A stretch of 64,000 nucleotides of DNA, taken from a virus. Made by a program: the position numbers and the translations under genes. The first letter of the stretch is position 1. Each line of letters starts with the position of its first letter. A model generated the notes under the pieces. It was not told where the DNA came from, did no database searches, and was given only the letters and a program-made list of their open reading frames with translations. The stretch covers positions 62,001 through 126,000 of the IMG/VR virus record IMGVR_UViG_3300040786_000030; one strand, given 5' to 3'. This document shows, in pieces, positions 21,628 through 31,700 of the stretch.

Positions 21628-22031
21628 ATGACTAAAATTAGAATAACAGAAAAACAATATGAGGTGATTCTTTCATATAAATCTTTATTGAAAGAGGGTG
21701 ATGATGCGATTAAAACTGATTTAAAGGTTATTTTAGCTATTAGTGTGTTAATTGGGTTGAATATTACTGGCCATAATAAAATAATGGCTGATATGGCTTT
21801 TAAAGACAAAACAATATTTACTAAAATAAAAGAAACGTTAGAATCTAAAGATGATTTAGAAGAATTAGTAAAAGCTTTAGAGATAAAGGGACTTAAGAAA
21901 CCAGAAAAAAATTAAAAGATGTTATGGGTTCACTTATTAGTAAATTCAATACTTTATCAAATGAAAATGGTTTTAATATCAAATTATCACCAACTGCTAT
22001 GGTAAATTTAAATAATCTAGATTCAGAATAA
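21628..22031 (+). CDS. Small phage protein with ITEKQY N-terminus
   Basis: About 134 residues; one frameshift near 21910. Begins MTKIRITEKQYEVILSYKSL, similar to the start of the gene at 24895 (KLKISESQYNTLQKYL). A hydrophobic stretch (VILAISVLIGLNITG, residues about 34-48) may be membrane-associating. C-terminus contains VMGSLISKFNTLSNENGF. Sits between the sheath and tube genes with its own late-type motif. Function not recognised. Confidence 0.65.
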
Positions 22032-22067
22032 AAATAAAATAAATTATTTATAAAAAAAAAATATGAA

Positions 22068-22075
22068 TATTTATA
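22068..22075 (+). promoter_or_regulatory. Late-promoter-like motif TATTTATA
   Basis: ATATTTATAAATAATAAT, 34 nt before the tube ATG. The 12-mer TATTTATAAATA is palindromic and so contains the T4-type TATAAATA on the same strand. Confidence 0.5.
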
Positions 22076-22109
22076 AATAATAATAACAATAAATTAAAAC
22101 AAAAACAAC

Positions 22110-22597
22110 ATGGCTGATTTACTAATGAAAATGCCCTTACCATACGAACCTAAAAAGAAAAATCGTTGGTTAATTACATTCCCAGCTGATTTAGGTATCC
22201 AACAATGGTGGTTATCAACAGCTTCAAGACCTTCTATAACACAAAATGAAGTCGAAATTCAATTTTAAATACATCTACATGGGTTTTAGGTAGATTTACT
22301 TGGGAATCAATCGATGTGGTATTCCGTGACCCTATTGGACCATCAGCAACACAAGCTATTATGGAATGGGTACGTTTACATTCTGAGTCTATTACTGGTC
22401 GTCAAGGTTATGCTGCTGGTTATAAAAGACCTGTTGAACTTGAAATGCTTGACCCTACTGGTGTTGTAGTTGAGAAATGGTTATTAGATGGAACTATGTT
22501 AACTAACGTTGGTTTTGGTGATTTAGCTATGGATGATGATAGTATTGCTGAAGTTACAACAACACTTAGATTTGATAGAGCTATTCTACTTTTCTAA
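22110..22597 (+). CDS. Tail tube protein (gp19-like)
   Basis: About 162 residues; one frameshift near 22265. Sequence elements match T4-like tube proteins: KKKNRWLITFPADLGIQQW, an ASRPSITQNEVEIQ strand, WESIDVVFRDPIGPSATQAI, MEWVRLHSESITGRQGYAAG, KRPVELEMLDPTGVVVEKW and the final TTTLRFDRAIL. Length is as for T4 gp19 (163). It polymerizes into the inner tube through which DNA passes. Start chosen at 22110 because MADLLMKMPLPYEP continues into the body and the late motif lies upstream. Confidence 0.93.
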
Positions 22598-26004: not shown

Positions 26005-28434
26005 ATGGCAGCATTAACACCAGAAGAATTAGCTAAACTAGCGTTAGAGCAGACGAAATTAGCTACGATACAATTAAAAGAACAAGCAAAAATTAGAGCT
26101 GAGTTAAGTAATAGTCTTGATGGTTATATCAAGGGTATTAAGGATTTAAAAGCTATTCAAGATACTATAAAATATAATGAGGAAAAATATTAAAGTTAAA
26201 AAATGATGGTATTACAAGAACTGATGAGGAACTAGCAATACATGAAGCTAAACTTAAAATATTAGAAGAACAAACAAAATATTAAGAACTCAAGGTGTTG
26301 AATTAAAAGCAGCGCTTAAAACCGTAAACACAACAAATTTAGCTATGTCTAAAATTGCATCTTCAGCGGTTAAAGGTTTGGCCCAATTACCAGGTATTAT
26401 ACAAAACTCATTTGGTAAACTTAAAGGTTATGGGTTATTTGAAATGGATAAGGCAATTAAAATGTCAGCATTACAAATGGGTCTTTTAGGTAAAGAAGGT
26501 GATGAATTTAATAAGACAATGATTAGGGTCGCTGGTGATACTAACAATATTGGTGTTACTGTTGAGAAATTAAGCGCTTTACAAGCTGATTTTAATTATA
26601 ATCTAGGTAGAACTCTTATGCTTAGTGATAAGAACCTTAAAGCTATGGCAGCGATGTCAGTGGCTACAGGTTTAAGTTCTGAAGATGTAGTCAAATGGCT
26701 TCTGATATGGATGAACAAGGTAAGTCAGTATCAGAAACCAGTAAGTATTTAGAGGACAGTATGAATAGTAGTCACGCAATGGGTCTTAATGCTACTAAAG
26801 TTATTAAGAATATTCAATCAAATATGAAATTACTTAATAAAACTAATTTTAAAGATGGTGTTAAAGGTTTAGAAGCTATGGGTAAATTAGCAACTAAATT
26901 AGGTGTTAAAATGGATTTTGCTGCTGGTATGAGTGATAAACTATGGGATATCGAAGGTGCTGTAGATATGTCTGCTCAATTGCAAGTTATGGGCGGTGCT
27001 TGCTAAACTAGCTGACCCATTCCATTTAATGTATATGGCTCGTAATGATATGAAAGGTTTAACTGAAGAAATAGCAAATGCTTCAAGCATCTATGCATTT
27101 AGGTAAAGATGGTGGAATAGAAATGACTTCAATGGAAATGTCTAGACTTAAAATTGTAGCTAAAGAGGCTAATTTGGAATATGATGACTTAGTTAAATCT
27201 GGAAAAGAACTCTTTAAAATGAATAAAGTAAAACAACAGATTGGTTTTCAAGTTGACCCAGAAACTAAAGAATTTATAGCAAATACAGCCCAATTAAATA
27301 AAAAAGTAAAGCAGAAATTGATATTAAAGGTTATACTAAATTAATGTCACAATTAACATCTGCAGATGTTAATTATTTAAAAACTAAAACATTAGAAAAG
27401 CAAGTTTAGAAGAACGAGCTAAAGCATCGCAAAATTTTGACGATAAGGTTACAAATTTTATTAATATGGTCAAAACATATATGTTACCAATTATTGATGG
27501 AATTAATGATGTGTTAAGTCCAATCGTAGATAAATTTATGAAAGGTGATTTTAAAGGTGAAATACGTAAAATTGGTGAAAGTATTGGTAACTCTATAATA
27601 GCTGTAAAACCAGTTTTGACGCTATTGGTAATTTTATAAACATGTTAGGACCAGGTAAAACTTTAGGGTTATTATTTGGTGGTAAAATACTATTTGATGT
27701 GGCTTTATGGGCTTTGAATGGTGTTAGTTTAGGTCAAGCATTTTAGCAACAACTAAAAGTTTTGAAATGGAATGCCTGGTGCGTCAAGTTCATGGACACC
27801 AGGTCAATCTGGAAACGGTAAAGGTTGGTCTATGGGTAAAAGAGTTGGTGCTGGTGTTGGTCTAGGCGTTGCTGGTATGGGAGCTGATTATTTAACAGAT
27901 AAATACACTGAAGAAGGTAGTAACGCTAATATTGGTGGTAAAGCACTGTCTGGTGCTTTATCTGGCGCTGCTATGGGTGCAATGTTAGGTCCTTGGGGTT
28001 AGCTGGTGGTGCATTAATTGGTGGATTATATGGTGGTATAACAGCAGCAATGAAAGAACCAAAAAATAAAATAAATGGAGTTAATAACCCAACAATAAAA
28101 CAACCAATTAATGATGGAATATCTAAAAGTGGTTATAGTAGAGGTATTTTAGCTGGTGGGACTATTACACCAATTAGTAATAAAGATGATTTAATGTCTT
28201 TTAAATCTAAAGGTCTTATTGATAATGCTTTAAATAAAAATGCAAATGTTCCAAGTACAATGAAAATTGAGTTTGGTGAGATTAAATTTGGTGGTGAATT
28301 AAAATTAACAACACCAGGTTCTCCTGGTCAAGGTATAGATTTACTTAAAACCAAGATTTCATTAGAAACATGACTACGTTGATACATTCTGAAACACAAA
28401 ACAAATTAATGGTGGAAAAATAAAGGTTAATTAG
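26005..28434 (+). CDS. Tail tape measure protein (probable)
   Basis: About 810 residues; frame changes near 26192, 26280, 26695, 27000, 27078, 27305, 27405, 27615, 27745, 27770, 28000 and 28360. Long N-terminal helical part (LTPEELAKLALEQTKLATIQ, then Lys/Glu-rich) and a hydrophobic Gly/Ala-rich region (VGAGVGLGVAGMGADY, GGKALSGALSGAAMGAMLGP, GLAGGALIGGLYGGI), as usual in tape measure proteins whose central part can insert in membranes. Located after the tube and hub genes and before the baseplate set. By the common ratio of about 0.15 nm per residue a tail near 120 nm would be expected. I did not see a metallopeptidase motif. Confidence 0.7.
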
Positions 28435-28470
28435 TGTTGATTATCAGTTGATTAACTTTTATTTTTTTTT
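28422..28470 (+). terminator. Terminator overlapping the tape measure stop
   Basis: AAAGGTTAAT (28422-28431) pairs with ATTAACTTTT (28451-28460), with a T-rich run to 28470. Confidence 0.7.
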
Positions 28471-28495
28471 AATTATAAATTAATGTTTAAATAGC

Positions 28496-28526
28496 TTGAC
28501 ATTGTGAAATAAATTCCGTAAATTTG
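28496..28526 (+). promoter_or_regulatory. Bacteroidota-type promoter TTG-20-TAAATTTG
   Basis: TTG at 28496-28498 and TAAATTTG at 28519-28526, spacing 20 nt. Matches the Bacteroidota primary-sigma consensus (TTG around -33, TAnnTTTG around -7). Confidence 0.65.
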
Positions 28527-28532
28527 CTATTA

Positions 28533-28653
28533 TAATATAATTAAATAAATAATAAAATATATAAATAAATAATATATAAAAAATAATATAGATAAATAAT
28601 TATATATAATATAAATATATAATTAATAAAAAGGTGCTAATAGTACCTTTTTT
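28533..28653 (+). ncRNA. Candidate small RNA between promoter and terminator
   Basis: From the expected start of the 28496-28526 promoter to the strong terminator at 28628-28653 there is a transcript of about 120 nt with no ORF. The body is about 95 % A/T and would be unstructured except for the terminator stem. Either a phage small RNA or a remnant of a lost early gene. Confidence 0.3.
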
Positions 28654-28655
28654 AT
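28628..28655 (+). terminator. Intrinsic terminator, 11-bp stem
   Basis: AAAAAGGTGCT, loop AAT, AGTACCTTTTT; one G-T wobble. It terminates nothing but the candidate small RNA. Confidence 0.8.
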
Positions 28656-28714
28656 TTTAAACCAATTTCAATTATAAAGAAACATTTATTTTAGTTAAAT
28701 TTTTAGTATCATAA

Positions 28715-28730
28715 TATTTATATATAAATA
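28715..28730 (+). promoter_or_regulatory. Late-promoter-like motif in a 16-bp palindrome
   Basis: TATTTATATATAAATA is a perfect palindrome and combines TATTTATA with the T4-type TATAAATA. The identical 16-mer recurs at 39739-39754. Ends 6 nt (TATTTATA half 14 nt) before the ATG at 28737. Confidence 0.5.
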
Positions 28731-28736
28731 AATCTT

Positions 28737-31700
28737 ATGGCAATATTTTATAATACTAATAATCCAACACCATCTTCATTAAATACTATCAATAGTGTTT
28801 CAATGAATATTAGAGATTTTCTATTAACTAAAACATATCTTCAACATATCCTCAAATTGGCACAAGTATAAATGGTAGTCCTCAAATTGGTGAACCAGTA
28901 TTAGATACACAATCAAATTTATTAAATACTTACCCACATCAACAACTAACAGGTGATATTCAAGCAATTCAAAACCTCGATGTTTTAGGTAGTGTATTGA
29001 ATGGTCAAGGAATTGGGTTAGGTAGTAAAGGTATTGTACCAAACTTCGATATTAGGGGTTCTTTAGCTGGAAGAATATTAGGTGCTACAGGTCTTTTAAG
29101 CGATACTAAGATAGGAACTATAGCTGGACAACAATTAGCTTTAGCTTTAGCTAATAATGCCACATTTAACGTAGAACAGAGTTTATTTGGTAAATTAAAC
29201 GCTGCGGATAATTTATTAAGTTTAGTAAAGAATGGTACACTAGCTGGTTTTAGACCAGATTATAAAATAACAGTACCATCAAGCACTATTGGTGTTGTTG
29301 GTGAGTTCACTAGTAGAATGTTAGGGTTTACAGTACCTAGAAGTTATTTAAATGATTCTGGTTCTATATTTCAAAATGAAAATAAAGGTGTTGGTAATAT
29401 AGAACGAGCTAATAGTATGTTACTAAACACTGGTAAGGGTCAAGTTTTATCATTATTAAAAATATAAAAAAGTAACATAGGTCCAATAAAATCAGTATTT
29501 AGAAGTGGATACGCACCAGGTTTTACAAATAATAAAGGTGTTAGACAAATTAGTGAAGAAGAAAGTAATGTTTATGCTTTTGATAAATTAGGGCAAAATA
29601 TTAATCTATTAAGTAATTCTATTGATGGTATAATACCAGATTTAATGCATAATAGTGAAGATAATGTCAGTAATTATGGTTTTACTAGTCCAGAAATGAA
29701 TGGTACTGGCCCTTATGGTATATTGGATATGATAATAGAAAAGTTAGTGATATCGGTTTTACTTGGACGACAAATAATGGTGATGCTGTAAATACAACAA
29801 CTGATAATGATGAAATTATTGGTGATAAAAAATCGTTATTGGTAAAACACAACAATTATTCAATAGTAAAGGTTTGAAAAGTATGATATCAGTAAAAGGT
29901 GATATGAAAGCTGTATCTAATCAATTACAAACAACAAATGGTGGTGGTTTATCTAAAGGTAGTGCGGTATTAAGTGGTTCAATGTATAAAAAGATGGTAC
30001 ATATGTTGGTAATAATTCATCAGCTAATGATACATACTGTAGAAGTTGGACAACATTAGATAGATACGATACTGTTAATAAATTAATTAGAAATAATGGT
30101 TTAGATGAAAATTCTGTATATGGTAAGAAAAATATACCATATAGGTTTCAAACTGAGGGTAGTGTATTAGATACTAATGGATTCCCTAAAATAGCACCAT
30201 ATAGAGATGACCAACCAGAAGACCCTAAAAAATTTATGTTTTCACTTGAAAATTTAGCATGGTCTGATAATATTGCTGATTTACCTCAAAGTGAAATTGG
30301 TTCTGGTGATATCGCTAATGATAAAAAAAGGTAGGATTATGTGGTTTCCACCATACGACATCACGTTTAGTGAAAATAATTCAGTAAATTGGGAATCTAC
30401 AAATTTTATAGGTAGAGGTGAACCAATATATACGTATAATAATACTGAAAGGTCAGGTACATTAGGTTTTAAGGTAATTGTAGACCATCCTAGCAACGTA
30501 AATGCTTTTAGAGGTGATAAGGGTCCAAGTGATAATTATGTTGCCTCATACTTCGCTGGTTGTGTTGAACCAAATAAATTTTGGAGAAATAAATTAACAA
30601 TTAATCAAACTAATCAATTAATTAATGAAAATACTAATACACCACAATCAGCTGTAATTACAAAGAAAAAGCTCCAGATATAAAAATTATTTTTTATTTC
30701 CCAAATGATAATGCTATAATACCAAATAATTATGAAAATGGTTTAAGTGGACCGTTAATTACTGATTTAATAGATTACACTAATAACCCACGTGGAGATG
30801 GATATGGTATTGATTTATATAAATCAGATGGTTTTACATCTGGTATTCATCAAAAAGTGGGTTGGTATGATAATACTAATTTTGGTTTAAACGCTTCTAG
30901 TCAATATTCTACTGGTGTTGTTTTTAATGGTGTCACATATATGGGTTTAAGGGATGTAAGTAGTTTAATGGTGGCTTTAAATACGTATATTAATGATGAA
31001 TGTCCAAGTTGTGTTGTTAATATATCTGGATATGCTAGTGAGCAAGGTGTTGAGAGTTCAAATAATCGATTAATTAAAAGTAGAGGTGAATATATTACAA
31101 ATATACTTAAAGGTGGATTATTTAAAAAACTAACAGATTCTGATAAAAATAAAAGGTTTAAAATTGTTGATGGTGGTATTATAAAATCTGCTGGTTGTAA
31201 AGTTGGAGTTGAAGAAGATATTGACCAAAAGGCTTGTAAAGAGGCTAGAAGGGTTGAAGTAACATTTAAATTTGATGCAAATATAGCTGCAGAATCTATA
31301 GTTAAACCAAATATTAAAATTAAAACTGAAAATAAAGTGTTAGTCAAAAATAATTAACGAGTATTATAATGAAACATTATATTTTGATAGGTTAAAAGAA
31401 AGTGACCCTTTGTTTTTGATTCATTTAGGGAGAAAATTAAATATTTTCACCCAGCATTTCATTCAACTACACCAGAGGGTTTAAATTCAAGACTTAACTT
31501 TTTTATTACAATGTACGAGACAAGGACCAACATCAGAATTACAAGGGCCAAATAATTTAGCATTTGGTAGAGCACCTGTATGTATTCTTAGAATTGGTGA
31601 TTTTATAATACTAAAATTGTTATTGATAATATTGGAATTACGTATGAACCTTTAGTTTGGGATTTAAACCCAGAAGGTATTGGGGTACAACCAATGATAG

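Follow-up and report, generated by a model that had tools for sequence, protein, structure and literature searches.

A geneless promoter and A/T tract conserved before one gene of an uncultured phage family: a candidate transcript-primed replication origin

The origins oriF and oriG of phage T4 are the closest described counterparts of the locus analysed in this work. According to the account in PMC3016281, about 100 bp are needed at these origins, comprising a promoter together with an unwinding element rich in A+T; the R-loops formed there do not depend on a particular sequence, and the unwinding element can be replaced by a foreign one. The same account gives oriF as ori(uvsY) and oriG as ori(34), named after gene 34, and places several T4 origins near a switch of the transcribed strand and of base skew, two being without it. 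In mitochondrial DNA, a split G tract is proposed to end transcription prematurely and to give R-loop primers, as described in PMC5027508. Two further systems share parts of the layout: bacterial small RNAs with intrinsic terminators, which are short non-coding units with their own promoter and hairpin, and the sigma-A promoters of Bacteroidota. The latter are defined by an upstream TTG element and its spacing to the -7 box. In Flavobacterium psychrophilum the -7 box TAnnTTTG was located at -12 to -5, as reported in PMC9723704.

The window, i.e. the whole stretch of 64,000 nucleotides that was analysed, covers positions 62001-126000 of a virus record 193,180 bases long, and all positions refer to it unless another contig is named. 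Its assembly is rich in small indels relative to the related contig L004 (99.0% identity across 10.4 kb, where 96 gap positions but 6 mismatches were counted), and most long genes are broken over window 1-64000. Because of these indels, the end of the gene upstream of the spacer was placed at 28428-28430, and not at 28373. We read this gene as tape-measure-like, from its size and place; its pieces and its L018 relative gave no family match. The downstream gene, called DN, starts at 28737 and encodes 1218 aa in L004; its one family match was OmpA, below threshold. The first-pass annotation had put the spacer between two late structural units; the label “late structural” rests, for both neighbours, on position and these weak matches. 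No DNA relative of 26500-31000 was found among isolated phages, and the six loci found in bacterial genomes were in mixed bins (two Bacteroidota MAGs, a Mycoplasmatota MAG, Prochlorococcus and a Holophagaceae MAG), which were uninformative on the host. The features of the locus were as follows:

28428-28430, + strand: stop codon of the upstream gene, read in the L004 frame
28437-28446, no strand assigned: palindrome TTGATTATCA, upstream of the promoter
28496-28526, + strand: promoter of the Bacteroidota sigma-A type, TTGAC and then the -7 box TAAATTTG at 28519-28526
28527-28627, + strand: A/T tract, proposed unwinding element, with 62 A, 37 T and 2 G/C in 101 nt
28531-28656, + strand: predicted non-coding RNA of about 125 nt, its start taken from the -7 box and its end from the T tract
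28628-28658, + strand: hairpin (28628-28652) and T tract, intrinsic terminator, with 11 pairs, 3 of them G-C, and a loop of 3
28684-28724, no strand assigned: conserved 41-nt box ATTTATTTTnnnnAAAnTTnnnnTAnnATAGTATTTATATA, the window copy ending in ATAATATTTATATA
28737-28871, + strand: start of DN, its frame broken in the window

As at oriF and oriG, a promoter is followed by an A+T-rich element, about 100 bp in total, and as there the tract is conserved by its composition and not by its sequence. Since the promoter, the composition, the place and a single-copy box are conserved and the sequence of the RNA is not, we favour, by analogy and at slightly less than even confidence, the reading of the spacer as a transcript-primed (R-loop) replication origin working like the two T4 origins. 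The first-pass annotation had listed a small phage RNA, a decoy and the scar of a deleted early gene; an origin, absent from that list, fits conservation of composition only better.

The promoter had been called host-type by the first-pass annotation. This holds as a sigma-70 match (TTGACA-N17-TAAATT at 28496-28524, 10/12 to consensus), but the Bacteroidota sigma-A type (TTG-N20-TAnnTTTG) appears to be the better reading of 28496-28526: a -7 box TAnnTTTG with a TTG about 20 nt upstream was found in the window and in 17/17 loci fetched with a piece of DN (two pairs of which, L007/L008 and L019/L020, nearly duplicate each other), all 17 having exactly one TTG-N20-T[AT]NNTTTG upstream of DN in the region searched. 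The place of the -7 box in F. psychrophilum puts the predicted RNA start at about 28531. The unit shares the -7 box and the upstream TTG with Bacteroidota sigma-A promoters but differs from them in its extended conserved spacer letters (TGT, CCG), in its fixed N20 and in the mostly geneless DNA downstream.

Consensus matches by themselves were not significant: in 3.5 kb, 20 promoter-like sites were found vs. 22.8 expected, and 2 terminators by the bare criterion vs. 1.1 expected. The pattern TTGA-N17-20-TAnnTTTG was likewise weak in its bare form, with 15 matches in the record vs. 13 for the reversed control. Counts no higher than in shuffled DNA are what chance matches within A/T-rich DNA would give, but this explanation is scarcely credible, being refuted by conservation at one place; the promoter and the terminator were accepted as real because they are conserved in relatives, not from their likeness to a consensus.

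This conservation was followed in a larger sample, obtained with a DN alignment search (the best 80 of 582 loci). Old and new loci with the DN start present and at least 300 nt upstream numbered 51, and 38 of them had the strict promoter at most 400 nt upstream of DN (0.63 expected from a first-order Markov control). Removal of the duplicates L008, L020, L058 and L114, which were also left out of the gap and hybrid-energy comparisons below, gave a set of 47 loci; all of these have the DN N-terminus and 300 nt or more before it, and the close pairs L018/L019, L010/L013 and L061/L065 are still among them. Conservation of both elements in relatives, on which the first-pass annotation had made its reading depend, was found for the promoter (strict form in 34/47 loci) but in only about half of the loci for the terminator (22/47). 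Once the seven loci fetched by means of the promoter (L037, L038, L040, L043, L044, L052 and L053) were removed, 27/40 had the strict promoter; among the 13/47 lacking it, two carry one further upstream, past an insert.

Scanning viral contigs with the 31-nt form TTGACNNTGTNNNNNAAANNNCGTANNTTTG gave 22 matches, 20 of which were in the spacer before DN (19 placed by tblastn to a flanking gene, L042 by eye) and two outside it (L045 and L047); nine of the 20 were redundant (L048 copies L044, L049 copies L040, and seven had already been DN-fetched). With up to 2 mismatches allowed, the 31-nt form was single-copy at the unit in five of seven long records, two of these five having one extra match each, before an ORF (L144, L145); one record matched only off the unit, again before an ORF (L140), and one had no match.

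Seven of the 14 other TTGA-N17-20-TAnnTTTG sites of the record were inspected, and showed A/T-rich leaders before genes; these sites precede, among others, sigma-factor-like and ssDNA-binding-protein-like genes (by eye), a tmRNA (Rfam) and, about 370 nt on, tRNAs. The same promoter type was seen from L031:1530 onward (record base ~145280), before a primary sigma-70-like gene (by eye). The phage's own sigma might read these promoters. The tmRNA at L033:1593-2031 (record ~165247-165685) scored 49.9 bits in Rfam vs. a cut-off of 47, ARAGORN reporting none, and directly after it there is an HDV-like self-cleaving ribozyme (HDV-F-prausnitzii, 46.2 bits vs. 44); further on, L034 holds two tRNA-Met genes.

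The description of the spacer body as almost only A/T was confirmed for 28527-28627. The segment 28529-28628 was the least stable 100-mer of the 64-kb window (-0.831 kcal/mol per step vs. a mean of -1.175, sd 0.064). In 15 of the first 17 loci the least stable 60-mer began at most 200 nt behind the -7 box, and in 44/47 relatives the spacer before DN held the 60-mer with the lowest stability in the locus, a count that includes L066, whose minimum sits behind an inserted gene and outside the unit. The three exceptions were L059, L072 and L074, where an insert or gene separates the unit from DN; in L059 and L074 an A/T tract and promoter are still beside the upstream gene, as are an A/T tract and a promoter-like sequence in L072. 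The letters of the tract differ between relatives while its composition is kept (by eye). Of 34 loci examined, 20 had further non-coding gaps of 60 nt or more (41 in total), and the unit was GC-poorer than all of them in 18/20 loci, tied in one and richer in one (L073) (Wilcoxon p = 8e-5); a 60-mer at least as GC-poor as the unit was found in 3/41 other gaps. In the window, the short gap that precedes the ORF at 22111 holds the second least stable 60-mer, 22027-22086, with a single G/C.

At the end of the tract, the window has a hairpin that contains G+C and runs into a T tract, and the first-pass description of a promoter and an 11-bp-stem terminator with no gene between them proved accurate. 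A hairpin with a T tract was present in 22/47 loci (0.00 expected, Markov, 20 draws per locus), three of the 22 (L066, L072 and L074) coming after an inserted gene; it was absent in 25/47 by this criterion, which overlooked the L009 hairpin (short T tract). Both arms of the stem differ from locus to locus (GGTGCT/AGTACC, GACACG/TGTGTC, GGCAC/GTGCC, GCCCG/TGGGC), with pairing preserved. The predicted RNAs were 79-144 nt long in 20 hairpin-bearing loci, and had no ATG frame longer than 16 codons in these 20 relatives; in the window, 28531-28627 has no start codon (ATG, GTG or TTG). A short protein-coding gene was ruled out on these two grounds. A search for tRNA and tmRNA found none in the window, and Rfam 15 (tRNA, tmRNA, structured RNAs) gave no match there at the gathering threshold.

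The small phage RNA proposed by the first-pass annotation is borne out as far as promoter and terminator appear to form a conserved short non-coding unit; the transcript itself is predicted. That such an RNA acts in trans, as a regulator, sponge or decoy of about 80-145 nt for host or phage RNA or protein, with an A/U-only 5′ part and a terminator hairpin, is distinctly unlikely. In its favour, the unit is discrete, with its own promoter and, in 22/47 loci, its own terminator, and the lengths predicted are those given above. Bacterial small RNAs with intrinsic terminators share this layout; here, in contrast with them, no RNA sequence is conserved except the hairpin, itself missing from about half of the loci, and the lack of an Rfam match in the window also speaks against this explanation.

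Genes were found behind the promoter in some relatives. L066, L072 and L074 have an ORF of 160-190 aa between the unit and DN, with UvrB/UvrC-like repeats in our reading by eye, followed by the hairpin and T tract; in L160 and L163 a short ORF comes after the tract. With an ORF behind the tract in these five loci, the promoter may serve a gene there. ORFs at this same place are what a deleted early gene would predict, its promoter and terminator having outlasted it, as the first-pass annotation had suggested. Such a scar is very improbable. In a FastTree tree built from 54 DN proteins, each of the clade's two main branches has loci with the strict promoter, those bearing the UvrB/UvrC-like ORF were nested in two places, and the geneless units of both branches keep the promoter spacing and the extreme A/T composition, which a scar would lose. 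In addition, 34 more distant loci had spacers of 25-66 nt and the strict promoter in none. Since the ORF loci are nested twice and the distant loci have short promoterless spacers, the inserted gene, judged from these sequences, was more likely gained than ancestral. Two other ORFs were seen by eye next to the unit: a TnpB-like ORF at L059:5286-7000, which seems to have entered the box region, stands between DN and the promoter with its tract, and an HNH endonuclease-like ORF at L012:288-670 adjoins the promoter upstream, in the place taken by the upstream structural gene in other loci.

Conserved sequence extends beyond the unit of the first-pass annotation, up to 28724, as a 41-nt box about 10-18 nt before DN. 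The box pattern was found in 25 viral contigs, which overlap the contigs found earlier, and DN came next in 25/25 (20 by blastp, 5 by blastx). The strict promoter was present at most 300 nt upstream of the box in 16/25 of these contigs, a sampling based on the box and independent of the promoter (L248 has 100 nt only). With up to 3 mismatches allowed, the box was single-copy in each of 6/7 records; the reversed control matched once. A short form (AGTATTTAT or GTATTTATA) was found at most 70 nt before 27/39 DN genes, vs. 1/148 other ORFs of at least 120 aa on the + strand and 0/31 on the - strand. The box was therefore ruled out as a general late promoter, being near DN almost exclusively and single-copy per record. 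At the place of window 28709-28740, the box end ATAGTATTT is in many relatives complementary to AAATACTATG, which overlaps the start codon (by eye); a hairpin over the DN start is possible.

A leader or attenuator of DN was also considered: the promoter would provide extra mRNA with a long A/U leader, the hairpin, where present, would be a conditional terminator, and the box before the start codon would set translation or late transcription. We regard this as unlikely, although the unit directly precedes DN in most loci, the 25/47 loci without hairpin could let transcripts continue into DN, the box is always beside the DN start, with many copies pairing with the start-codon region by eye, and other such promoters of this genome precede genes with A/T-rich leaders too. 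Against a leader, the tract is much more A/T-pure than other gaps, the TnpB-like insert of L059 separates promoter and tract from DN, and a host-type promoter for a structural gene makes no evident sense.

A palindrome (TTGATWATCA or TGATWATCAA) was present upstream of the promoter in 14/47 loci vs. 0.15 expected. The palindrome stretch folded better than shuffled sequence in L004 (-18.6 vs. -11.3, sd 2.2) and L013 (-14.5 vs. -10.1, sd 2.5); as a terminator of the upstream gene it found no backing in the 7 other loci tried, which fold no better than shuffled sequence.

Under the favoured origin reading, the spacer would be no gene, nor what is left of one, but a transcription unit dedicated to a role in cis. 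Host RNA polymerase with sigma-A, or with a phage sigma, would start at about 28531 and make an RNA of about 125 nt, crossing in the A/T tract the easiest-to-open DNA of the region and halting at the hairpin before DN. We infer a course like that at T4 oriF and oriG: this RNA would remain hybridized to its template in an R-loop and, by its 3′ end or by one made through cutting, prime the synthesis of a leading strand to the right, and the phage helicase would enter by way of the displaced strand. The palindrome and the 41-nt box would act as accessory sites. The promoter, the composition of the tract, the terminator with compensated stems where present, the single-copy box, their place and the lack of a gene are features of the sequence; transcription, R-loop formation, priming and origin activity are what they would imply under this reading.

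The unit also differs from oriF and oriG. A MotA middle promoter is used in T4, and TTGAC with TAnnTTTG, of the host sigma-A type, is found here; as no MotA-type promoter was seen, the unit would only work alike and was not filed as a member of the T4 type. A dedicated terminator or G runs are present in part of the phage family, and the unit has a single-copy 41-nt box; its role as an origin is here a proposed one. No strand switch was found near the unit, and from 17 kb onward GC skew was positive throughout the window. The model paper PMC6442632 places most R-loops in G-rich places, which counts against an origin in an A/T tract. The RNA-DNA hybrid was favoured for + RNA over - RNA in 29/34 loci (p = 1e-5) because A exceeds T in the tract; the hybrid-minus-duplex energy of the tract was at the 37.8th percentile of the window, an ordinary value, and hybrid energy was dropped as an R-loop signal because it is not distinctive within the window.

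Among replication proteins, a DnaB_C helicase domain was found in 7/7 records, PolB in 5/7, and PolA in 0/7; a 5′-3′ exonuclease was found in the window. The search for gp32 missed its controls too and was uninformative on gp32. Neither a T4-type polymerase nor a T4-like replisome was established; PolB was not found in this record, and its best match in the phage collection was to a Salinibacter phage, at 24.5%.

A sub-clade of nine loci (L018, L019, L073, L076, L157, L159, L160, L163 and L164, those of L018/L019, L157/L159 and L160/L163 being alike) has two runs of 5-6 G, 4-7 nt apart, lying 9-12 nt after the -7 box. This pair is unique within each of the nine loci and was seen elsewhere in the set only in L080; the hairpin was absent in all four G-run loci scored for hairpins. 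The human mitochondrial light-strand promoter with conserved sequence block 2, a promoter followed by a split G tract, resembles this sub-clade alone: G runs are absent from the window and from most relatives, polymerase and genome are unrelated, and the phage runs are 4-7 nt apart where PMC5027508 gives one base for the mitochondrial ones. That an uncultured family of large phages, probably of Bacteroidota, has one conserved transcript-primed origin, made up of a host-type promoter, an A/T-only unwinding tract, a device for ending the transcript and the single-copy 41-nt box, and that this device is a hairpin in part of the lineages and a split G tract in another, is conceivable but doubtful; if true, a single phage family would have found two solutions to one primer problem.

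The case for novelty is that the L009 DN protein had no tblastn match in the phage collection, that Rfam had none in the window, and that no title on such a unit was among the literature matches listed for the terms used. Dozens of relatives form a natural series in which promoter and composition are kept, letters vary, and G runs replace the hairpin in one sub-clade; such a series would let the rules be read from evolution and tried on plasmids, and the 31-nt promoter together with the 41-nt box would flag a candidate origin in the genomes of uncultured phages.
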